A DNA stretch of 40,890 bases from the NCBI GenBank assembly GCA_902727915.1, contig CACVAU010000019.1:1-40890 (forward strand), given 5' to 3'. Positions within the stretch are counted from its first letter, which is position 1, and each line of letters begins with the position of its first letter. This stretch comes from an uncultured Sulfurovum sp. Its GTDB lineage: Bacteria > Campylobacterota > Campylobacteria > Campylobacterales > Sulfurovaceae. Under the pieces are notes generated by a model. That model was given only the letters and a program-made list of their open reading frames with translations. It made no database searches and had not been told where the DNA came from. Below, piece by piece: positions 4,649 to 39,241 of the stretch. A program made the translations under genes and the position numbers.

Positions 4649-4766
4649 GCTTCTAGGTTCTGCCTTTTGTAAAATTAGATTATATACCTTTACTGATGTA
4701 TTTTTCCCAAAAAATTAAAAAATATACATACGTAACTTTATAGAGAGTTCTGATATATTGTTTTTT

Positions 4767-6449
4767 ATGATAAATATACAAAATATATTCAAAGAAATTA
4801 TAAAACATAAAAAACATCTGCTTTTGGCAAACAGTGTGGCTATTGTTTCTACTTTAATTGTCCTTCCTGTTGCATTATTACTTCCTTTACTGATTGATGA
4901 ATTGATTTTGGGTCAAGGGGGTTCAATAATGAATACCATTGATGCTTTCATAAATGTTTCGGAGCCGATGTATTATATTCTTATTGTTTTGTTAGTGACA
5001 ATCGGACTTAAAGCCTTGGGTTTACTGCTTTCACTTTTACACATACGAATTTTTACCAAAATTTCTAAAGAAGTCACCTATACCATTCGGAAAAGACTAC
5101 TCAATCATCTACAAGTGGTTTCTATGAGAGAGTATGACTTATTAGGTTCGGGTGCCGTCTCATCTAAGATTATTACCGATGTGGAAACAGTGGATAAGTT
5201 TATTGCCTCCTCTGTTGGAGAAGTAGTGGTTGAGTTATTGACTTTAATTAGTGTTGCCATTGTCTTAATGTTTTTAAATTGGCAGTTGGCGTTGGTAATT
5301 TTATTTTTAAACCCTCTTACAATTTTTATCTTTTTACGCTCGTTTAGAAATGTGGCAAAGATGAAAAAGCGCGAAAATGAATCCATTGAGACTTTTCAAA
5401 ATACCTTAACTGAGAGTTTAGAACTTTATAATCAAATACGGGTACAAAATAGGGAAAAATATTTTTTAGAAACGGTAGACAATCAAGCCAAAGAGATACG
5501 TGATAAGTCTTATCTTTTTGGATTAAAAAGTGAGGTAACCTTAGAGTTTTCAAGATTGTTGACGTTTTATTCTCATGATATTTTTAAAGCCTTAGGCATT
5601 TTTATGGTTTTAATTGGTTCTTTAACCATTGGAACGATGTTGGCTATTTTTTCGTATGCTTGGATATTAATGCGTCCTGTTGACAAGTTACTTAATTTTA
5701 TTCATCTTTATTTCAATGCCCAAAGTGCCATTGAGCGTTTGAATCAAATTTTGCTTTTAGAAAAAGAACCTTATTATGAAGCAAAAATTGACCCTTTTAT
5801 GGATAAAGCATCGGCTTCCATTCGTTTAGAAGATCTTTCTTTTACTTATGATGGGGTAACAGAAGTTTTAAATAAGATTAATTTGGAGATAAAAGAGGGT
5901 GAAAAAGTTGCCATTATTGGTAAAACAGGCTCAGGTAAAAGTACTCTTGCTCAGATTTTAATAGGATTATATCCCATTAGTTCAGGAAAGATTTTTTATA
6001 ATAATCATGAAGTCAAAGAGATAGGCTATGAAGCGATACGGAAGCATGTAGGCTTTGTATTACAAGCCCCTTTAATGTTCAATAATACCTTACGTTTTAA
6101 TTTGACATTGGGTAAAACGTATAAAGATGAAGCCATTTATGAAGCCTTAAAAATAGCACAACTTTACGAATTTGTTTATGCCTTAGACGATAGGCTTGAA
6201 ACCATTGTTGGAAAGAATGGAACAAAACTCTCTGGAGGACAACGACAACGTTTATCCATAGCCAGAGTATTACTAGACAATCCCAAAGTGATAATCTTTG
6301 ACGAATCTACCTCCTCACTGGATAGTGAAACAGAAGATAAATTGTTAAAAGCTTTGGATATTTATGTTAAAGATAAAACAGTCATTACCATTGCCCATCG
6401 AAAAAGTAGCATTGAGAGGGCAGATAGAATTATTGATTTGAATAGCTAA
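4767..6449 (+). CDS. ABC transporter, fused permease and ATPase (exporter type)
   Basis: This is a half-size ABC exporter of about 560 residues. The N-terminal type-1 exporter membrane domain (about residues 10-310, six helices) is followed by a nucleotide-binding domain. Motifs in order are Walker A GKTGSGKST, the signature LSGGQRQR, Walker B VIIFDESTSS and the H-loop IAHRK. There is no C39 peptidase domain. I prefer ATG at 4767; an in-frame TTG at 4758 would add three residues. Substrate unknown. Its last 17 codons reappear at 8860 and, decayed, at 10351, and its stop overlaps the remnant tail of a replication-like gene on the other strand. The convergent RiPP genes end within 40 bases, so export of that peptide is conceivable, but the repeats indicate the exporter was there before the cassette. 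Confidence 0.88.
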   Translation: MINIQNIFKEIIKHKKHLLLANSVAIVSTLIVLPVALLLPLLIDELILGQGGSIMNTIDAFINVSEPMYYILIVLLVTIGLKALGLLLSLLHIRIFTKISKEVTYTIRKRLLNHLQVVSMREYDLLGSGAVSSKIITDVETVDKFIASSVGEVVVELLTLISVAIVLMFLNWQLALVILFLNPLTIFIFLRSFRNVAKMKKRENESIETFQNTLTESLELYNQIRVQNREKYFLETVDNQAKEIRDKSYLFGLKSEVTLEFSRLLTFYSHDIFKALGIFMVLIGSLTIGTMLAIFSYAWILMRPVDKLLNFIHLYFNAQSAIERLNQILLLEKEPYYEAKIDPFMDKASASIRLEDLSFTYDGVTEVLNKINLEIKEGEKVAIIGKTGSGKSTLAQILIGLYPISSGKIFYNNHEVKEIGYEAIRKHVGFVLQAPLMFNNTLRFNLTLGKTYKDEAIYEALKIAQLYEFVYALDDRLETIVGKNGTKLSGGQRQRLSIARVLLDNPKVIIFDESTSSLDSETEDKLLKALDIYVKDKTVITIAHRKSSIERADRIIDLNS

Positions 6450-6486
6450 AAGCTCTCAAACAATGTAATAATCCTATCTTTAATTT
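6396..6486 (+). repeat. 91-bp direct repeat, left copy (ABC 3' end plus tail of rep-like gene)
   Basis: This segment matches 8860-8950 without gaps; I count 86 of 91 identical bases. It consists of the last 54 bases of the ABC exporter gene, followed by about 37 bases equivalent to the 3' end of the replication-like gene at 8910-9740. The two copies bracket the RiPP cassette, whose last stop codon (6485-6487) sits exactly on the inner edge of this copy. Confidence 0.92.
6446..6486 (-). pseudogene. remnant 3' tail of a replication-like gene
   Basis: Read leftward, these bases encode IKDRIITLFESF and then TAG, matching IKDRIIGLFERF at the end of the intact gene at 8910-9740. Nothing upstream of it belongs to that gene here, because the RiPP cassette begins at the boundary. 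It is a trace of the original convergent neighbour of the ABC exporter, or of recombination with a second copy. Confidence 0.75.
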
Positions 6487-7171
6487 AAAAAATCTTAGGA
6501 TATTTAAAACTTCTATCTTTTTCAAAGTCATATCCTAAAAATTGAACGATTCCTTTTCCAGTTGAACTATTAGATAAGTAGTGAGGTTTATTGTTAGTAT
6601 ATATTTTATTTATTTTTTGATGTATTTCTTTTCTAATTTTTTGGTAAAACTCATTATTCAAATTCTTATTTCTTTCAAATGTTTTGTCTGCTTGAAATGA
6701 TAGTATTGTAATTTCACTCCTTCTAATATGGTTAGGATGATTAGGAGTTATTAAAACTGGATACCATAATTCTCCATTAAAACTAAATTTAAAATCTTTA
6801 TGGTTTAAATTTTTAGTAGCATTTTTGACCCATTCTTTTTTATCTTTTTTATGTAAACTTTTAATTATTTTGTACCATAACTCATCAAATAGTAAAGTTT
6901 TTGTATCTATATCAAAAATCGCAATAAATGTTGAGAATTTTTTCTCGTTATCAGAAATGTCATCTAATAAAAAATTAGACATTTCGCTTAAATCATTAGC
7001 TAAATGAGTGATTGAGTCTTCACTTATATCTTTGTATAGACCAGTATACATATAGTTTTTATTAAATGATATTTTTCCATAAATACAAGGAAAATTTTTG
7101 TTGTTAAATGTATTGAAAATTTTTTGATATATTTTAGGGTTTTGTTTTTTAATCTTATTAATACTAATCAT
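6485..7171 (-). CDS. YqcI/YcgG-family protein, putative haem-dependent N-hydroxylase acting on a RiPP
   Basis: This 228-residue soluble protein carries the conserved segments of the YqcI/YcgG family: FPCIYGKISF near residue 28, FSTFIAIF, an LW...L...D...W block, FKFSFNGELW, and TPNHPNHIRRSE with a following FQ. Members with known roles include GntA, the haem-dependent N-hydroxylase of guanitoxin biosynthesis. The arginine N-hydroxylase DcsA is, as I recall, of the same family. Such enzymes oxidise guanidine nitrogens. Its ATG overlaps the TAA of the radical SAM gene (TAATG), so the two are translationally coupled, and the precursor peptide upstream ends in Arg. Hydroxylation of that guanidine is therefore a plausible but untested role. 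The stop lies at the edge of the 91-bp repeat. It shares the low G+C of the maturase gene. Confidence 0.8.
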   Translation of the reverse strand: MISINKIKKQNPKIYQKIFNTFNNKNFPCIYGKISFNKNYMYTGLYKDISEDSITHLANDLSEMSNFLLDDISDNEKKFSTFIAIFDIDTKTLLFDELWYKIIKSLHKKDKKEWVKNATKNLNHKDFKFSFNGELWYPVLITPNHPNHIRRSEITILSFQADKTFERNKNLNNEFYQKIRKEIHQKINKIYTNNKPHYLSNSSTGKGIVQFLGYDFEKDRSFKYPKIF

Positions 7172-8463
7172 TAGAATATATCTAATAAATTTTCATTTTT
7201 TTCCATTAACTCAAGATATATTTCAAGAGAAATTTTAAAATCATTTTTAAAGCTATTACACTTTATTGTAGCTTTATTTTTATCTAGTTTACCATTTGTA
7301 ATAAATGAAGCATAGCACATTTCACAGTAATTATATGCAACACATTGATTACAGTCATTAGATTTAAAGTTTTCATATTCTTTAAGAAAGTTATTACTAG
7401 TTTTTAAAATTTCTTCATTATTAAGTTTAGTAATTCCCATATTCTCAATTCTTTCACAAAATTGGACATTACCATCTGTTCTAACATAAGTCCTATTACT
7501 AAAGGGAATACATTTTACTTTTCTATCATGAGCTTTATCACCAATAAGTCTATATTTTATTTTAGATATTAAATCTCCAAAATATTTATATTGAATAGGA
7601 TTGTTTAAAATATCTTTTGTATATATTAAGTTTAATATATAGTCTTTTGTAAATTCATTTTTTCTAAAATTTGATAAAGTTTTAAATTTTTGTATTTGGT
7701 CAGAAAATCTAACATTTGTATTTTTAATTAATTTATTTTGAGAAAAAAACTTATTTATAGGTTCAATCTCAGCTGTATCATTAACCACACAAGTTGTTTG
7801 TATATACTTATTATAATAAGTATGATTAGAAGAGTTAATAAGTTCAAGATTCTTCATAATTGTGTCATGTGTTTTCTTTTTATTGTTATCTAATCTATAT
7901 TTATCATGTGTTGTTTTATCTCCATCTAGACTTACCGTAATTAAAAAGTTATTTTCAATTAGAAAGTCTATTTTATCTTTTGTGAGTAAGACACCATTCG
8001 TTGTAAAAGAAAATTTAATATTTTTATTGAATAGTGTTTTCGCATAGTTTGTAACTTCAATAATAAATTTAAAATTTAAAAGAGGTTCCCCTCCATAGAA
8101 TACAATAAAAGCTTCGTTATCACTTACTCTACTTCTAAAATTATCTATGGCTTTAAATGCTGTATCTACTTCCATCTTTAAAGTTCCATGACTTCTTTCA
8201 TTTTCATAATCTTCATCAAATACACAATAAGAGCATCTAAGATTACATTGTTCTGTTATCTCTAATACTAATGTTTTTGCTTCATTTATTACTTTTTTAT
8301 TATGTTGTAATGGTATTAAAGATTGTTTTTCTGTATTAGTTTCAATATCTTGGATAGTGATATTATCTAAGTCTGATTGACTACTTATCTCATAGATTTC
8401 ATTTGAAAAGCCATCAAACAAATAGTATTTCTGATTAAAAGTGATTATTTTTAAGATATTCAT
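7171..8463 (-). CDS. radical SAM/SPASM peptide maturase
   Basis: This 430-residue enzyme has an N-terminal region of about 60 residues rich in beta-type pattern (YYLFDGFSNEIYEI) like that seen in other peptide maturases. The radical SAM core follows, with CNLRCSYC (Cys73, Cys77, Cys80) and the GGEP motif, then a C-terminal SPASM domain with at least six Cys. The SPASM Cys are in KCIPF, QFCERI, CNQC, YCEMC and KCNSF, enough for two auxiliary 4Fe-4S clusters. SPASM maturases install thioether or carbon-carbon cross-links in ribosomal peptides. The precursor gene starts 132 bases upstream (stop 42 bases before this start) and the YqcI/YcgG gene overlaps its stop. Two lines counted by hand at 7561-7680 hold 18 G+C in 120 bases, far below core genes in this window (20 in 60 at 13561-13620), pointing to acquisition. 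Confidence 0.92.
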   Translation of the reverse strand: MNILKIITFNQKYYLFDGFSNEIYEISSQSDLDNITIQDIETNTEKQSLIPLQHNKKVINEAKTLVLEITEQCNLRCSYCVFDEDYENERSHGTLKMEVDTAFKAIDNFRSRVSDNEAFIVFYGGEPLLNFKFIIEVTNYAKTLFNKNIKFSFTTNGVLLTKDKIDFLIENNFLITVSLDGDKTTHDKYRLDNNKKKTHDTIMKNLELINSSNHTYYNKYIQTTCVVNDTAEIEPINKFFSQNKLIKNTNVRFSDQIQKFKTLSNFRKNEFTKDYILNLIYTKDILNNPIQYKYFGDLISKIKYRLIGDKAHDRKVKCIPFSNRTYVRTDGNVQFCERIENMGITKLNNEEILKTSNNFLKEYENFKSNDCNQCVAYNYCEMCYASFITNGKLDKNKATIKCNSFKNDFKISLEIYLELMEKNENLLDIF

Positions 8464-8505
8464 AGTATGTTCATCTTTTATGTGAGAGAGGGGTGATATA
8501 CTCGA

Positions 8506-8595
8506 TTAACGAGCATATCCACCTTGTAAAGTACAAGCCATAGAAACAGTTCCTGTTTTAGGTTTGAAAACCTTTTTAATAACAATCTTTTTCAT
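8506..8595 (-). CDS. RiPP precursor peptide, 29 residues
   Basis: A short reading frame precedes the radical SAM gene in the same direction. The ATG at 8595 has AAAGGA eight to nine bases upstream and a TATAAT -10 box at 8630-8635, so it is a well-formed gene despite its size. The first 13 residues are Lys-rich and alternate with Ile, Val and Phe (a leader-like half). The C-terminal half reads GTVSMACTLQGGYAR. It has one Cys (21), one Tyr (27) and a C-terminal Arg (29). Candidate modification sites are Tyr27-Ala-Arg29 as an aromatic-X-X cyclophane, a Cys21 thioether, and oxidation of the Arg guanidine. No protease gene or double-glycine leader cleavage site is obvious, although Gly-Gly occurs at 25-26. 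I know no named family for this peptide. Confidence 0.8.
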   Translation of the reverse strand: MKKIVIKKVFKPKTGTVSMACTLQGGYAR

Positions 8596-8629
8596 AGTAT
8601 CATTCCTTTTATAAGTTTTAAGATTAAGT

Positions 8630-8635
8630 ATTATA
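8630..8635 (-). promoter_or_regulatory. -10 box of the RiPP operon
   Basis: TATAAT on the minus strand, 35 to 40 bases before the precursor start codon, within very AT-rich DNA. There is no clear -35, as usual in Campylobacterota. One promoter can serve precursor, maturase and YqcI/YcgG gene, since spacing is 42 bases and then an overlap. Confidence 0.6.
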
Positions 8636-8664
8636 GTTTATTAAATATTAAATATATATTAATT

Positions 8665-8789
8665 TTAAAATTTACTTTCATTCTATTCCCATAAAATAGG
8701 ACTTTTATATAGTTAATACTATATTTAAAATATTTAAAAGCCTAGAATATAGGCTTCTGAATATTTATGAATAATTAAAATTTACTTTC
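8665..8789. repeat. 15-bp direct repeat upstream of the RiPP promoter
   Basis: TTAAAATTTACTTTC occurs at 8665-8679 and again at 8775-8789, 110 bases apart, in the non-coding stretch between the RiPP promoter and the right 91-bp repeat. It may be a regulator site or a trace of local duplication. The low-complexity AT context makes chance recurrence possible, though 15 exact bases is long. Confidence 0.5.
8738..8756 (-). terminator. hairpin, probable terminator for the replication-like gene
   Basis: AAGCCTA/TAGGCTT forms a 7-bp stem with a 5-base loop. On the minus strand it is followed by TTAAATATTTT. It lies 150 bases beyond the stop of the leftward replication-like gene and upstream of the RiPP promoter, so it would insulate the cassette. 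Confidence 0.45.
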
Positions 8790-8859
8790 TTTGAATAGAT
8801 TAGTTAAAAGAAGCTTTAAAGCACTTTGTTTGCTAAATAAAAGTTTCATTTAAATTTTT

Positions 8860-8913
8860 CATCGAAAAAGTAGCATTGAAAGGGCAGATAGAATTATTGA
8901 TTTGAATAGCTAA
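8860..8913 (+). pseudogene. remnant 3' end of an ABC exporter gene (second copy)
   Basis: The frame encodes HRKSSIERADRIIDLNS and then TAA, identical in protein to the last 17 residues of the exporter at 4767-6449, with only one silent difference (AGG/GAG region) across these codons. No start or upstream ABC sequence exists here. Confidence 0.85.
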
Positions 8914-8950
8914 AACCTCTCAAACAACCCAATAATCCTATCTTTAATTT
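8860..8950 (+). repeat. 91-bp direct repeat, right copy
   Basis: This is the partner of 6396-6486, with five mismatches and no gaps. Here the replication-like gene on the minus strand is intact and the ABC exporter is reduced to its last 17 codons. Left of 8860 similarity to the ABC gene stops abruptly, which marks the right edge of the RiPP insertion. Confidence 0.92.
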
Positions 8951-9740
8951 CTTCTACCATTGGAGCTTTTTTAGAGGTGTTATCATAGCCATGTTTGTCA
9001 AAAAGTTTTTTAGGTTCAACCATTGTAGAGATACTTCTATTTTTAAACGTATAATAAAACCGTTTTGCTTTAAAATCTATGTCTATCAAGGTATCACAAT
9101 CTTTTTCCAACATCAAACTTTTACCCAACAATTGATGATATTTTGATTCTTTAATGGGCGTAATATAGAAGTTTTTCCACTTTTTAGCCATGGCTGAATA
9201 GATGGCTTCTTTTTGTTCTAAGGTGCTTCTATTTTTGAGCTTTTCACTCCAATGATTTAAATTATTTTTACTGTAGCGAATGTTATTTTTATTACAATAT
9301 TCAAGCCAACTTTTTAAGAGTACGGGTTCATTGTTAACTGTTGGGGTCTTCTCTTTTTTTGTTTTTGCATTCTCTTTTTTTAATATTTTTGGCGTTGTTA
9401 AATTTGTCACTATTTTCCCAAGAAGTTCGCCTACTTTCTTCTTGGTGTAGATAAAAGGCAGTTGAATATATGAGTAATAACCTTTTTGAAGCACAGCGAC
9501 AAATCCCATCTCTTTTAAAAGCCTTTTGGTTTTTTTGACTCGGTCAATTGCCCAATTCATCCCTTTTCTGGTGAATTCATCGGTACATAAAGGTTGATTG
9601 GTTTTTTGCAGTTTGGCTTGATAGGAATAGAAAGTATATAAGGCTAAAAGGTTCGCAAACTCTTTACCTTGACGCATAAATTTCTGCAAAGTATGAGGGT
9701 GAATTACAAGTAGATCTTCGAGGGGTTGTTCTGCTTCCAT
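8910..9740 (-). CDS. winged-helix protein, plasmid/phage replication-initiation-like
   Basis: This is a 276-residue soluble basic protein. Residues about 25-95 have the pattern of a winged helix as in plasmid and phage replication proteins: a helix ending LALYTFYSYQAKLQ, a second with MNWAIDRVKKTKRLLKEMGF and a wing YYSYIQLPF. A charged Lys-rich linker (120-135) follows, then a C-terminal helical region with KSWLEYCNKNNIRY and AMAKKWKNFYITP, similar in layout to DnaD-like or replication-protein tails. I cannot assign a named family. ATG at 9740 has AAAGG upstream. It is followed upstream on the same strand by a small HTH gene and a G-rich repeat, a combination resembling a small replicon or phage-satellite module. 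Its last 12 codons are inside the 91-bp repeat. Confidence 0.55.
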   Translation of the reverse strand: MEAEQPLEDLLVIHPHTLQKFMRQGKEFANLLALYTFYSYQAKLQKTNQPLCTDEFTRKGMNWAIDRVKKTKRLLKEMGFVAVLQKGYYSYIQLPFIYTKKKVGELLGKIVTNLTTPKILKKENAKTKKEKTPTVNNEPVLLKSWLEYCNKNNIRYSKNNLNHWSEKLKNRSTLEQKEAIYSAMAKKWKNFYITPIKESKYHQLLGKSLMLEKDCDTLIDIDFKAKRFYYTFKNRSISTMVEPKKLFDKHGYDNTSKKAPMVEEIKDRIIGLFERF

Positions 9741-9819
9741 TTTTTGCCTTTAGTTGGTTTGTATTTGGAAGTATAACAAGAAATAGATTTTTATATCTTA
9801 AAATATATTTTATTTATAC

Positions 9820-10062
9820 TTATTTTTCTATAAAAGTTCTTAAAATAGATTTAAAGTCATCTGCTTCATCTACTTTTTTCTTTAAGCTAATTGTTTCAAG
9901 ATAAAGTTCAATAGCTTTTTTAAGTTGAAGACTAAGTTTATTTGTAGAGACAGATTGTCGTAAATTACTTTCGCTATAACCTATCTTCTCAGCTAACTCT
10001 TTATAGGTAATTCCCAACTCTTTAGAAACTTGTTTCACCAAATGCATCTCTTTCTCTTCCAA
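9820..10062 (-). CDS. small helix-turn-helix (XRE/Cro-like) DNA-binding protein
   Basis: This protein of about 80 residues contains a helix-turn-helix: LGITYKELAEKIGYSESNLR, with the recognition helix at SESNLRQSV, followed by a helical tail. It resembles short Cro-like regulators carried by plasmids and phages. I place the start at TTG 10062, because AAGGAG lies eight bases before it; a GTG at 10071 overlaps that ribosome binding site and is less likely. A good -10 box lies at 10086-10091 and the G-rich tandem repeat about 100 bases upstream. It probably controls itself and the replication-like gene 79 bases downstream. Confidence 0.7.
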   Translation of the reverse strand: MEEKEMHLVKQVSKELGITYKELAEKIGYSESNLRQSVSTNKLSLQLKKAIELYLETISLKKKVDEADDFKSILRTFIEK

Positions 10063-10085
10063 AACCAGCACTCCTTTTTTAAAAG

Positions 10086-10215: not shown

Positions 10216-10350
10216 CTCAAAGTAGTCAATAAAGTAGCCTTATATACCACAAGTTGTTGAAGATGACTTAAGTTTTAAAAAATATCAGTGACATTAAAAG
10301 GCTGAAGAGAATCAAAAAATTAAATATTGATAATGGAGAAGTTGAATACG

Positions 10351-10413
10351 ATTGCCCATAGAAAAAACAGCATTAAAAGAGCAAATTGGGTCATTGATAC
10401 GAATATGCTATAA
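10351..10413 (+). pseudogene. decayed 3' end of an ABC exporter gene (third copy)
   Basis: The frame reads IAHRKNSIKRANWVIDTNML and stop, aligning with IAHRKSSIERADRIIDLNS at the end of the exporter at 6390-6449. Similarity starts near the H-loop and ends at the stop. There is no upstream ABC sequence. It is more diverged than the 8860 copy and lacks the tail of the replication-like gene. Confidence 0.75.
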
Positions 10414-33964: not shown

Positions 33965-36900
33965 CTAATTCTTTTTTACAGTGACCGTACGTGCCTCTTT
34001 AGCATAATCACTAATACGTGCATCATACATGGCTTCAGCAATGGTTGCTGGAAGCTTACAAGTCCCAAGGCTACTAGCAAATAGAGGTGTGTAGAGTACT
34101 CCTTGATTTTGTATTGTAACTTCTTTTTTCAATGTTTCATTATATGCTGTTTTCTCTGCCAAATCAATAAAGTGTAAGATACGATCATCTTGTATCTCTT
34201 TGTGTGTTAAGTTAATGTTTTCATTTGGGAAATGGGGTTCATGGTTTGGAATATTGTTGTTAATAATGCTAAGACAAGCAGGGATTTTTTGATTAACAAC
34301 GACATGATTAATTTTTTGATAATTAGCAATGCTTATTTTAGAGAAAATTTTGTCTCCTTGCTTGAGTTTAGCTAAGTCTACTGTTCTACCATCAGCATTG
34401 ACAAACTCTTGTTTGATACTTAACTCTTTTTGTGTTGACAAATCATTTTTGAGTGTTTTAGGAAGATGTTTAACCAATTCAACTGAATAGCTGACATTTG
34501 AGTTAGTAGGACTAAGTTTAATGGTCGAGCTTGTGACTTTGTCTACAGTTAGTAGTTTATTTTGTTTATAATTGAAATTTTTGTTGTTCACGGTGAGATT
34601 AACATCAATTTTACTCTCTTTAGGTTGACCAAGATAAGTACTAACGGCTTTAAGTGCTAAGGCTTTCTCTTGGGTTGAGTAGAGATTAGAGAATTCTTTT
34701 TGAACAATCGCTAAATCATCAGCGTCTTTGTTAAAGTATTTACTTTTGATAATGAAGTGTAGCATCATGTTTCGTACACTTGAGTCAAAGTCTTCATTTT
34801 GAATATTGTAGGATTTATGAGCATAGTCTGAGAGTTTATGTTGGTTTGATTCAAAAAGAGCTTGGGCTTTTTCAGTTTTTCCTGTGGCTTTTAAAATAGC
34901 AGCCATATAGAGTGTGGCTAAGACATCTTTCTGATAAGTTTTTTTCTCATATAACATATTGGCTGTACTTGAAGTGAGCAGTTTGTTATCAGCTAAAATA
35001 TAAGCTGCATAGAGTTGATGTAAGTTACTGTATTCAGCTTGATAAGAATCATTTTCAGAAGCAACTGCATGAAGCATCTTAATGGTATTTTTTTTGAGAT
35101 TTTCTTTTATGGAACCATTGGCTTTATCAATTTCGAGTAGGGTTTGGGCTGTATAGAGAGAAGCATAAGCTAGGACAGAATCTTCTCCTTCCCAGTATTC
35201 AAATTCACCATAATAGTTTTGCATATTATGAAGCTTTTTAATGCCTTGTAAAATAAAGTTTTCACTCTCTTTGATAAGTGTATCTTCTTTTAAAAATGCT
35301 TTTGCATGATGCATGGCAGAAAGTTGAGATGAGGTTTGTTCAGCACAACCATAAGGGTAAGTAATCAAGTATTTTAAGTCGTTTCTTAACGCACCCACTA
35401 GGTTGTTTGAAAGATTAACGTAGGCTTTTGCATTTTTATAGGCTTGTGGAACTTTAAAAGATTGCTTAGTTGAAGCAATACCTTTAAAAGTTTTTGTACT
35501 TAGGGGATAAGGACTGTAAATTGGTAGTTCAAGTGATTTAGAAACCTCTATGTTATCATATTTGCCAAGCAGTGAAATAGTTGCTTTGCCGATACTGTTT
35601 GCTGATAGTTGAGCCATAACAGCTTTAGAGCCATGGGCAGGAATATTAAGTTTTTTCTCTTGAAGCTTCAATGTAATATTCATAGAGTTTACAGAAGCTA
35701 GGGTAATGGTTTTATTGTTTTCGGTACTGTTAAAAATACGTATAGGTACTTCTATTTTATCCCCAACTAATCCATAAAGTGGAAAAGAAGGTTTAATCAT
35801 GATGTCATCTTTGACATTGATATCTTGTGAACTAACACCAATACTGTTTTCATTCATGGCGATGACGACAATAACTGCCTTGCCATTAAACTCTGGAATA
35901 TTAATGTCCAGTTTTTTAGTTTTTTCAGCATTGTCTAAGAGACCTGACCAAATCATAAAAGGTTTAATACGCTTTCCTAAGTCAGGGGCTAAATGTTTTT
36001 GTTTGAGGCTAAGCATATCTCCAGCACCAAAATCGACTAGCGTACCTTGGGCTATGTGACTTAGCAGTTGGTCATAGAGGTCGTGATAACTTAATTGTTG
36101 ATTTGGTTTTTGGTTAAAGTACTTAAAAATTTCGGGCTTTTTTTGTTCAAGTAATTGTAAAATACCTTTGTCGACAACAGAAATAAGTATTTTAGAAGGT
36201 TTAGAGGTTGTAATTTTTAGGGGTAAAACAGTTTTAGATTTTGTAGTTTTACTAACATTGATATCGATTTTTATTTTATGGGCTTCACGGTTAGGCTTAA
36301 CAAATTTATGACCCATAGCCCTAAAAGGGATGAGACCAGAACTTGAATGAGTAGGGCGTATGACCGTAGCATAAACACGGAGACCTCGTTGCATCTCTTC
36401 GGTAATTTTAAAAGGAACTTTAGCTACCCCTTTATTTAACGCTAAAACTTTATAATTGTCAACTTTTTCTCCAGCTAAAGTTAGAAGTAATTGTCCTTTT
36501 AAGATAGGTGATTTTATTTGTACTTCTAGGGTATCACCTTTTTTGTAAAGCTTGTCTTCAAACGTTACTTCAACTGTTTGTAAATTATTTTTAGGGGATA
36601 CATTGGAATAATTAGCCCAAAAGACATCAAATTCTTGCGAAGTTGAATGTCCATTTAAACGATCATGCACTTCTATAATATAGGTACCATTTCTAGTAAT
36701 ACTTCTTGAAAAACTTTCGTTACTGTTAATGCTAAAACGGTCAACTATACTAGTTTCTTTTTCCCAGTTATAATTTCCATCAGCGTAGTCGTAGTGCCAC
36801 TCAACATGTTTAACAATGGCATAAAGTTTACGTTTAATAACTTTAGCTGTTTTAGGGTCAATGAGTACCGTTTTACCCTTTAGTTTTTCTCCTTTTTCAA

Positions 36901-39241
36901 AAGAGTGATGGTTTATTGTTAACCCAACCATACTTTTGTAAGGGTAGATTTTGACTTTTTTATAGGTTGAAATAGGCTGACTGTCATCCATAATGGTTGT
37001 CCCAACCATGGCTTCTAAGATGGAAGGAACTTTTTGTGTTAAAGTATTTTTTAGAATGACGTTATACTTACCTTTATCATCTAAAATAATGTCTTCATTA
37101 TGTTCTAGGTAAGTGCTGATATTTTTTTTAGCTAAAGCATCATTACTGAAGTGATAGTCTTTAAAAGCTTTATGACGGTAATTTATGGGACGTGCATTTA
37201 GGGTTACTTTTCCTTGTAGATTAGACGCAACAGCACCAAATAGGTAAGATGAATGAATGTTCACATTCATGAGTTCATCAATATGATACAGTGTCTTATC
37301 TGTTTCAATTTTATTTTCAATTTTGGGAGGCATAAAGGTTTCAACTTTCATAAGTTGAGAACCAATAAGGTTTTCACCCAAATAGACTTCCAGTTTATAA
37401 TTGCCTGTCTGATCATTGGCATCAAGTTGATGGTTAAAGTCTATAAGACCATAGGCATCAGTATGGTACACTTTTTCATGCACTTTTTTGCCGTATTGTT
37501 CTTTGAAAATGACTTTAACAGGAAGTTTAGACGCTGAAATAAAATCTCTATCTTTGATGCTTAAGAGTGCATTTACTTTTGCTTTTGGACGTACAATTTT
37601 AGATTGAAAATAGACATGTGCTTTAAAGCGTTCAAGATTTTCAGAGAGTTGTTCGATGGAAGGAGAGTTTATACTGTTGTTAAGGGCTAAAAAGTTTTTG
37701 TCTGTAGCTGTTTGAACAATGATTCCTTTGGCAACTTTTTTTAACATCTCTTTGTTGATAATGGCTATGCCATCATTGTTGGTTTTAGCTTTAGCAATGA
37801 GTTCGTTGTTTTCAGCATAAATTTGAACTTCAGCATTGTTCACAGCTTTGGTTTCATCCAAAGATAAAACAGAAACAAAGGCTTGTTCTTTCGCGATAGT
37901 GGCTGTAATTCCAAGGTTGGAAAGAAAAAGAACTTTAGAGGCAGAGCGTTCTTCTTCTTTTTTATTGATAAGTTCTGAATAACGAAGTGTGATTTTATAA
38001 ATACCCACAGCCAAGGCTTTTTTGTTTAAATCAGAGAGTTTAAATTTTTGTTTGAGTAAAGTGTTCTTTTTCTGATTGAGTATCAGTTCTTTAGAGAAAA
38101 TCTCATGAGTATAGGCATCTATATGTTCTTGTTTAGCTTGGTTAAAGTTCATAAAATAACGTAAGTTATCATCCAAAATACGTTCTACAATAAGCGTAGC
38201 TTTGTCAATGTTAATGGAAGAAAATGCAAGTTCACCCTTATTGGAAATATAGGGTTTATCATTGTCAAAAAGAACAACTTTGGCACGGTCACCTGTTTTT
38301 AGTTTGTAGTGAACATTTTCTTTAATTTCACGGTAGTAAGAGGTAAGTCCTGCTTTTAAAATAATATTATATTCTGTGTTTTCTGTAAATTCTTTTGAAG
38401 TGATATCATGATAATAATAGGCATTTTGAATGCCATAACGCTCTCGCATTTTTTGATCAATATAGTCATACTCACTGACTTGAAAATTCTTTATACCGAC
38501 AATTTCGATGCTCTCTTTGGTATGGTCAGTTAAGTCATCATTAACAAAAATACGCAGGGCAAAATCCCCGTTAGCCAGTGAGACCATTTGGGGTGCATCA
38601 GCAATGTTCATGGATGTTTTTTCAGGGTCTAGTTTGATATTTTTGTGTAAAGTATTAAAGCGTTGGGTGTATGTTTCAGGATAGGCAACATTATAAATGG
38701 TTTTTAGTTTATCATTGATATTCAGTTCAATGACATTTGAACCAACCTTTTCATTGAGTTGTAGTATTAAATTTTCTTCACTATGTTCTAAGACTTTGTA
38801 TTTAAGTGAGGTTTTTGAGAGTTTATCTATCTTGATAAGTTGAAGACCTGTAGAAATACTTTTGAGGTCAAGTTTGTCATTAAAACTCAAACGCATGATA
38901 TTTTCATCTTTAAAATAGTGAGCATCCATCAGCTTAAACGCCACGGTATTAAAGATGACATCTTTTCCTTCATAGTTACAACTGTATTGGGTTGATGTTT
39001 GTAGTGCTTGTTGAAGAATTACTTTTAGTTTCTGTCTGGATTCAACTTTATAGGCAGCAGAAATTTTAGGGCTACAATTTAGAAAAGGAGCATGAGTATA
39101 ACCATAGTTTATGTCAAAACTTTCTTCTGTATTGTTGAGTTCAAATGTACTGTTAATGGGTATAGGGGTTTGTATGGGCGTAATATGTGCAAAAAGAAAA
39201 ATGTTTAGAAGTAGAGGTGAAAGGAGAAGAAGTTTTTTCAT
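33965..39241 (-). CDS. bacterial alpha-2-macroglobulin family protein
   Basis: At 1758 residues this is the largest gene here. A Sec signal peptide (KKLLLLSPLLLNIFLFA) lacks a lipobox Cys, unlike the usual lipoprotein form. A long series of MG beta-sandwich domains (about 50-1250) follows, with the MG2-type region near 400-640 and the alpha-2-macroglobulin bait/core region near 1080-1190 (FMIWSGLL, KAVIVVIAMNEN). The thioester motif is YGCAEQTSS, with Cys1299 and Gln1302, then the alpha-toroid domain to about 1590 and a receptor-binding-like end. It traps proteases in the periplasm. The frequent neighbour pbpC (PBP1C) is absent. It may guard against external proteases. Transcribed alone, convergent with the FTR gene. 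Confidence 0.92.
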   Translation of the reverse strand: MKKLLLLSPLLLNIFLFAHITPIQTPIPINSTFELNNTEESFDINYGYTHAPFLNCSPKISAAYKVESRQKLKVILQQALQTSTQYSCNYEGKDVIFNTVAFKLMDAHYFKDENIMRLSFNDKLDLKSISTGLQLIKIDKLSKTSLKYKVLEHSEENLILQLNEKVGSNVIELNINDKLKTIYNVAYPETYTQRFNTLHKNIKLDPEKTSMNIADAPQMVSLANGDFALRIFVNDDLTDHTKESIEIVGIKNFQVSEYDYIDQKMRERYGIQNAYYYHDITSKEFTENTEYNIILKAGLTSYYREIKENVHYKLKTGDRAKVVLFDNDKPYISNKGELAFSSINIDKATLIVERILDDNLRYFMNFNQAKQEHIDAYTHEIFSKELILNQKKNTLLKQKFKLSDLNKKALAVGIYKITLRYSELINKKEEERSASKVLFLSNLGITATIAKEQAFVSVLSLDETKAVNNAEVQIYAENNELIAKAKTNNDGIAIINKEMLKKVAKGIIVQTATDKNFLALNNSINSPSIEQLSENLERFKAHVYFQSKIVRPKAKVNALLSIKDRDFISASKLPVKVIFKEQYGKKVHEKVYHTDAYGLIDFNHQLDANDQTGNYKLEVYLGENLIGSQLMKVETFMPPKIENKIETDKTLYHIDELMNVNIHSSYLFGAVASNLQGKVTLNARPINYRHKAFKDYHFSNDALAKKNISTYLEHNEDIILDDKGKYNVILKNTLTQKVPSILEAMVGTTIMDDSQPISTYKKVKIYPYKSMVGLTINHHSFEKGEKLKGKTVLIDPKTAKVIKRKLYAIVKHVEWHYDYADGNYNWEKETSIVDRFSINSNESFSRSITRNGTYIIEVHDRLNGHSTSQEFDVFWANYSNVSPKNNLQTVEVTFEDKLYKKGDTLEVQIKSPILKGQLLLTLAGEKVDNYKVLALNKGVAKVPFKITEEMQRGLRVYATVIRPTHSSSGLIPFRAMGHKFVKPNREAHKIKIDINVSKTTKSKTVLPLKITTSKPSKILISVVDKGILQLLEQKKPEIFKYFNQKPNQQLSYHDLYDQLLSHIAQGTLVDFGAGDMLSLKQKHLAPDLGKRIKPFMIWSGLLDNAEKTKKLDINIPEFNGKAVIVVIAMNENSIGVSSQDINVKDDIMIKPSFPLYGLVGDKIEVPIRIFNSTENNKTITLASVNSMNITLKLQEKKLNIPAHGSKAVMAQLSANSIGKATISLLGKYDNIEVSKSLELPIYSPYPLSTKTFKGIASTKQSFKVPQAYKNAKAYVNLSNNLVGALRNDLKYLITYPYGCAEQTSSQLSAMHHAKAFLKEDTLIKESENFILQGIKKLHNMQNYYGEFEYWEGEDSVLAYASLYTAQTLLEIDKANGSIKENLKKNTIKMLHAVASENDSYQAEYSNLHQLYAAYILADNKLLTSSTANMLYEKKTYQKDVLATLYMAAILKATGKTEKAQALFESNQHKLSDYAHKSYNIQNEDFDSSVRNMMLHFIIKSKYFNKDADDLAIVQKEFSNLYSTQEKALALKAVSTYLGQPKESKIDVNLTVNNKNFNYKQNKLLTVDKVTSSTIKLSPTNSNVSYSVELVKHLPKTLKNDLSTQKELSIKQEFVNADGRTVDLAKLKQGDKIFSKISIANYQKINHVVVNQKIPACLSIINNNIPNHEPHFPNENINLTHKEIQDDRILHFIDLAEKTAYNETLKKEVTIQNQGVLYTPLFASSLGTCKLPATIAEAMYDARISDYAKEARTVTVKKN

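Follow-up and report, generated by a model that had tools for sequence, protein, structure and literature searches.

A predicted RiPP-type cassette pairing a radical SAM/SPASM maturase with a YqcI/YcgG haem enzyme in an uncultured Sulfurovum

Gene organization of the cassette

The window analysed here is a stretch of 40,890 nucleotides (nt) from an uncultured Sulfurovum sp. (assembly GCA_902727915.1, contig CACVAU010000019.1, positions 1 to 40,890). It carries three minus-strand genes that encode, in reading order, a 29-residue peptide, a radical SAM/SPASM maturase and a YqcI/YcgG-family protein, a candidate cassette for a ribosomally synthesized and post-translationally modified peptide (RiPP; Table 1). 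The peptide open reading frame (ORF) and the maturase gene are separated by a 42-nt gap (8464–8505), and the maturase and YqcI/YcgG genes overlap by one base within TAATG, a leftward layout that agrees in coordinates, strands and spacing with an earlier, preliminary description of this DNA.

Table 1. Features of the cassette and its flanks
Feature	Position	Strand	Basis
YqcI/YcgG-family (AglA-fold) predicted haem guanidine N-hydroxylase, 228 residues	6485–7171	−	
Radical SAM/SPASM peptide maturase, 430 residues, with N-terminal region possibly like a RiPP recognition element (RRE)	7171–8463	−	PF04055, Cys motifs, structure model
Precursor peptide gene, 29 residues, MKKIVIKKVFKPKTGTVSMACTLQGGYAR	8506–8595	−	Coding-like codon use and counterparts in relatives
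AAGGA, likely ribosome-binding site of the precursor gene	8604–8608	−	Read by eye, ahead of ATG
TATAAT, possible −10 element	8630–8635	−	Read by eye; consensus scan gives no site there
Left copy of 91-nt direct repeat	6396–6486	.	3′ end of ABC gene and first bases beyond
Right copy of 91-nt direct repeat	8860–8950	.	Contains 3′ end of ORF 8910–9740

Conservation of the three-gene unit

Peptide, maturase and haem enzyme form a unit, as comparison of loci makes plain. We searched 301 genomes belonging to the same order as G001, the source genome of locus L005 (titled Methylobacter sp. metagenome-assembled genome (MAG)), with a sister-clade maturase, P0055, at an E-value of 1e-40, and read the loci of all six matching genomes. 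In each of these distant relatives, as in the window, a 29-residue ORF stands before the maturase gene, which is followed directly by a gene for a PF08892 protein (68.1–94.7 bits). The gaps between peptide and maturase are 31, 76, 76, 76, 80 and 177 nt, with start codons of our choosing, and the maturase and haem-enzyme genes overlap in five loci and lie 3 nt apart in the sixth. The maturases are 40–44% identical to that of the window; that the sister clade might be without a haem enzyme is ruled out by the relatives' own, which are 36–43% identical to the window's. The preliminary description had proposed looking beside homologous gene pairs for a conserved short frame ending in Tyr-X-Arg, and all six relatives have one, ending in Tyr-Ala-Arg.

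Its reading also depended on the two enzymes occurring together elsewhere, which they do. In the family of G1196, 201 genomes were searched; six match the maturase P0088 used as query (E-value 1e-40) and six match PF08892, and these are the identical genomes and the identical contigs, with no others. PF08892 is scarce elsewhere: 1 of 369 genomes in one set and 0 of 85 in another have a match above its cut-off, and searches with the YqcI/YcgG protein gave only 21 and 23 proteins (the window's own counted). Within the window's own clade the signal is indirect: 6 of 12 close maturase clusters match a YqcI/YcgG cluster in the size of the longest contig, an equality that is informative for close clusters only and is not proof of one contig. 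One such matching contig comprises 2,710 bases, fewer than 750 of them beyond the two genes. By the same measure, none of 107 distant maturases was paired with a YqcI/YcgG cluster. The seven presumed pairs diverge in parallel (Mantel r 0.96, a value reached in 10 of 5,040 permutations). Because the named organism in the window's clade is a 'Campylobacterota bacterium' (P0008, P0028), the cassette probably spans two phyla.

The precursor peptide

The seven peptides align without gaps and all end in C-[TS]-[LV]-QGGYAR, with M1, K7, V9, F10, P12, G15, C21 and Q24-G25-G26-Y27-A28-R29 invariant throughout. The peptides of L122 and L123 are identical, leaving six distinct sequences including that of the window. 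Over all pairs of these six, the last nine codons show 57 synonymous versus 13 nonsynonymous differences, and codons 2–20 show 54 versus 137; because the last nine codons change mainly synonymously, the C-terminal nonapeptide is conserved as protein. A search for 'QGGYAR stop' through 1.66 Mb of loci (window left out) returned 21 rows, in which overlapping loci are counted repeatedly, all confined to the loci of the six relatives.

The window ORF itself has coding-like GC contents of 39, 43 and 14% at the three codon positions and a codon score of 8.32, reached by 16 of 3,000 stop-free shuffles (P 0.0053) against a reference usage that takes in both cassette enzymes. These codon statistics are modest evidence; the counterparts in relatives are decisive. 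We place the leader at about residues 1–18 and the core at about 19–29. The window peptide contains a single arginine, Arg29. As this is also the only position to keep an arginine in all seven peptides, it is the likely hydroxylation site. No NCBIfam model matched the window peptide at E-values up to 10. A CcpM-type precursor was considered and rejected, there being no NCBIfam match and the score of the alignment to the CcpM-type precursor of L059 being reached by 2,367 of 5,000 shuffles.

The two enzymes

The maturase scores 68 bits against PF04055 (cut-off 29.5), and the cysteines of its CX3CX2C motif, like the seven of its SPASM domain, are unchanged in all 26 aligned maturases, bearing out its earlier assignment as a radical SAM/SPASM enzyme. 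Its structure model (mean predicted local distance difference test (pLDDT) score 87.8) has an N terminus of three strands and three helices, and among the 50 structure matches listed, alignments that start at residue 1 are limited to CteB and TigE entries. The protein stays under the NCBIfam equivalog cut-offs of CcpM (223 of 500 bits), RumMC (166.5 of 720) and PapB (141.9 of 340), and so does the maturase of the L125 relative (220, 154 and 143 bits); the cyclophane maturase profiles YhhB, FxsB and GrrM are also listed, at lower scores. We rejected an antiviral viperin, since the PADLOC pVip match (55.8 bits) covers residues 67–254 only and the window protein, unlike viperin, has a SPASM domain. 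In a scan of genome contigs with the maturase, the best 80 of 305 loci were distant maturases.

The third protein scores 94 bits against PF08892 (gathering cut-off 27), in line with its earlier placement in the YqcI/YcgG family. The AglA fold and the haem-ligand cysteine of the FPC motif are both present, as are, by alignment, the substrate-clamp aromatics and glutamine of known haem enzymes. The GntA equivalog NF041366 gives 83 bits, below its cut-off of 145, and 58 and 42.5 bits for relatives. At the position of AglA Arg179 the window protein has D162, a residue that varies among aligned sequences (D in 19 of 26). Three YqcI/YcgG haem guanidine N-hydroxylases, AglA (argolaphos), GntA (guanitoxin) and ChmN (chalkophomycin), use arginine that is free or linked to a small molecule (PMC12866846, PMC10849742).

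Proposed pathway and alternatives

Assignment of the three genes to a RiPP-type cassette is well supported by the conserved frame and the enzyme pairing, as the preliminary description had it; the two steps that it proposed, a radical cross-link and a guanidine N-hydroxylation, probably follow, judging from the enzyme families. In the pathway that we envisage, the leader, with its motif K-x-V-F-x-P-x-x-G, would be held by the putative RRE-like N terminus of the maturase. That enzyme would abstract a hydrogen atom from the core and form a single cross-link (−2 Da), most probably a thioether joining Cys21 to a neighbouring residue. The haem enzyme, its iron bound by its own Cys29 and its electrons supplied by a ferredoxin or reductase of the host, would then hydroxylate the C-terminal residue of the peptide, Arg29, on its guanidine group (+16 Da), and a host protease and exporter would complete the product. 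On balance we think it probable that the locus is such a minimal, horizontally moved RiPP cassette, with a Cys21 cross-link and N-hydroxylation of Arg29.

Several observations weigh against this picture. The named maturase profiles listed all lie far below cut-off and so do not settle the type of cross-link, the window core has no acidic residue of the kind that PapB uses, and the leader's likeness to the CcpM precursor is not significant. The differing and variable residue at the AglA Arg179 position means that the substrate of the haem enzyme may differ. No protease or exporter was seen in the window's cassette, nor an integrase. All six relatives belong to a single order and two of them share one peptide sequence, and the window's nearest relatives were compared as proteins and not at the DNA level.

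The same cassette might instead install a change other than a thioether: a C–C link at Tyr27 (a Tyr-Ala-Arg cyclophane or a Tyr-Arg bond), an epimerization or some other modification, with Cys21, for example, binding a metal. The invariance of Tyr27-Ala28-Arg29 in all seven peptides, the lower-scoring cyclophane profiles and the missing acid for a PapB-type link all fit this idea, yet Cys21 is just as invariant and the nearest profiles, weak as they are with none at its cut-off, belong to thioether or Cys-rich peptide maturases (CcpM, RumMC and PapB); we regard it as rather unlikely. It is more improbable still that only peptide and maturase make up the RiPP while the haem enzyme oxidizes a small molecule such as free arginine, later attached or used apart. 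ChmN does oxidize free arginine, and there is no conservation at the position of AglA Arg179, the residue that holds the carbonyl of the substrate, but the window's cassette has no ligase gene, haem enzyme and maturase are strictly paired in six of six genomes, and the peptide already ends in a genetically encoded, invariant arginine. Finally, the 29-residue ORF might be regulatory or a chance frame, the enzymes acting on another peptide or protein. The absence of an NCBIfam match and the non-significant leader resemblance would suit such a frame; its equal length, place and C terminus at seven of seven loci, the mainly synonymous change in its last nine codons and the restriction of 'QGGYAR stop', in the 1.66 Mb searched, to the loci of six genomes make it barely credible.

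Relation to known systems

For the favoured reading, a cross-linked and N-hydroxylated peptide, the closest parallels include the CcpM, RumMC, PapB and CteB systems, the nearest named profiles and folds to the window maturase, in which a short leader–core peptide likewise precedes a SPASM enzyme whose N-terminal region is RRE-like, as that of the window maturase may be. Unlike these, the window core has one cysteine and no acid, its peptide matches no precursor model, the maturase falls far short of the profile cut-offs, and a YqcI/YcgG partner replaces the usual neighbours. The haem enzyme resembles AglA, GntA and ChmN in its fold, FPC cysteine and, by alignment, substrate-clamp residues, and differs from them in its partner gene, whose product is a ribosomal peptide with a C-terminal Arg. 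Mycofactocin and pyrroloquinoline quinone (PQQ) also arise from a short precursor with an invariant core, through a SPASM enzyme, as fixed small-molecule products; the window's system differs in its core residues, lacks a chaperone or protease gene of its own and includes a haem enzyme instead.

That the core hardly changes suggests a fixed job, as metal ligand, signal or cofactor-like molecule, and not a diversifying bacteriocin; such constancy within an apparently mobile cassette points to a molecule with a definite biological role. Our wider proposal, of a cross-phylum RiPP family with this core whose YqcI/YcgG enzyme N-hydroxylates a peptide-bound C-terminal Arg, giving a cross-linked hydroxyguanidine product with such a role, is tentative, at a little under an even chance. 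If true, the reach of the YqcI/YcgG family would widen to ribosomal peptides, and the cassette would provide a genetically encoded route to a peptide-terminal hydroxyguanidine; we know of no YqcI/YcgG enzyme that acts on a peptide, and that of the window would be the first. Literature searches on YcgG/YqcI with radical SAM, RiPP or N-hydroxylase, and on hydroxyarginine, N-oxygenase or guanidine in connection with RiPPs, in sources that mostly leave subscription journals uncovered and so cannot prove novelty, found no such combined pathway and no report of this pairing of enzyme families. The cassette offers a very simple test system of one 29-residue substrate and two enzymes, with predicted shifts of −2 and +16 Da.

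Flanking repeats and apparent mobility

The cassette has apparently moved horizontally. Its GC content (22.8% over 6450–8836) contrasts with 31–34% in most neighbouring stretches, the exceptions to this comparison being a small helix-turn-helix (HTH) gene (29.4%) and the precursor gene (31.1%). In all six relatives, too, the cassette is poorer in GC than the remainder of the sequence retrieved, the values ranging from 32.4 versus 36.9% (L123) to 31.4 versus 45.7% (L125), and the flanking ORFs vary between loci except for an upstream ORF common to L122 and L123. In the window, the cassette is flanked by 91-nt repeats that span the meeting ends of an ABC transporter gene (4758–6449) and the convergent ORF 8910–9740. 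The two copies differ at 5 of 91 positions and sit inside 114-nt repeats (6373–6486 and 8837–8950, 88%), as if the cassette had inserted with a long target duplication.

Phage origin found no support. The maturase alignment drew 28 distant viral matches (20–37% identity in the best segments), the 74 matches in phage records are all below 60% identity, the haem enzyme has no PHROGs match and no relative encoded on viral contigs, and the DNA pattern of the peptide core has no viral match. Among plasmids, 233 records match the maturase, all below 60% identity, and none matches the haem enzyme.

The 3′ end of the ABC gene also recurs weakly (76%) at 10347–10413, as if it were a repeated insertion point with three copies. 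Between the second and third copies, at 8910–10071, lie a 276-residue ORF without clear family and an 83-residue HTH protein (phrog_4779, 50.5 bits), which may be a second inserted module.

Candidate expression signals and neighbouring features

The single promoter given in the preliminary description did not reappear: a sigma-70 consensus scan of 6400–9000 lists no minus-strand site in 8596–8836, and its 14 sites in total are under the shuffle mean of 22.0. Upstream of the precursor gene, the minus strand carries a hairpin that resembles a terminator (8736–8758) and could insulate the cassette from transcription coming out of ORF 8910–9740. Rfam and tRNA scans gave zero matches.

In three relatives the haem-enzyme gene is followed by an ORF of 262–301 residues (L122, 3848–4636; L123, 3566–4471; L124, 2188–3081) that is hydrophobic by eye, has no Pfam match and may encode a transporter or an additional enzyme. 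Elsewhere, G750, the genome behind L053 (titled Acetobacteraceae MAG), has 21 SPASM-type maturase matches in 2.5 Mb, an unusually large number, and positions 33965–39241 of the window encode a 1,758-residue protein with bacterial alpha-2-macroglobulin domains.
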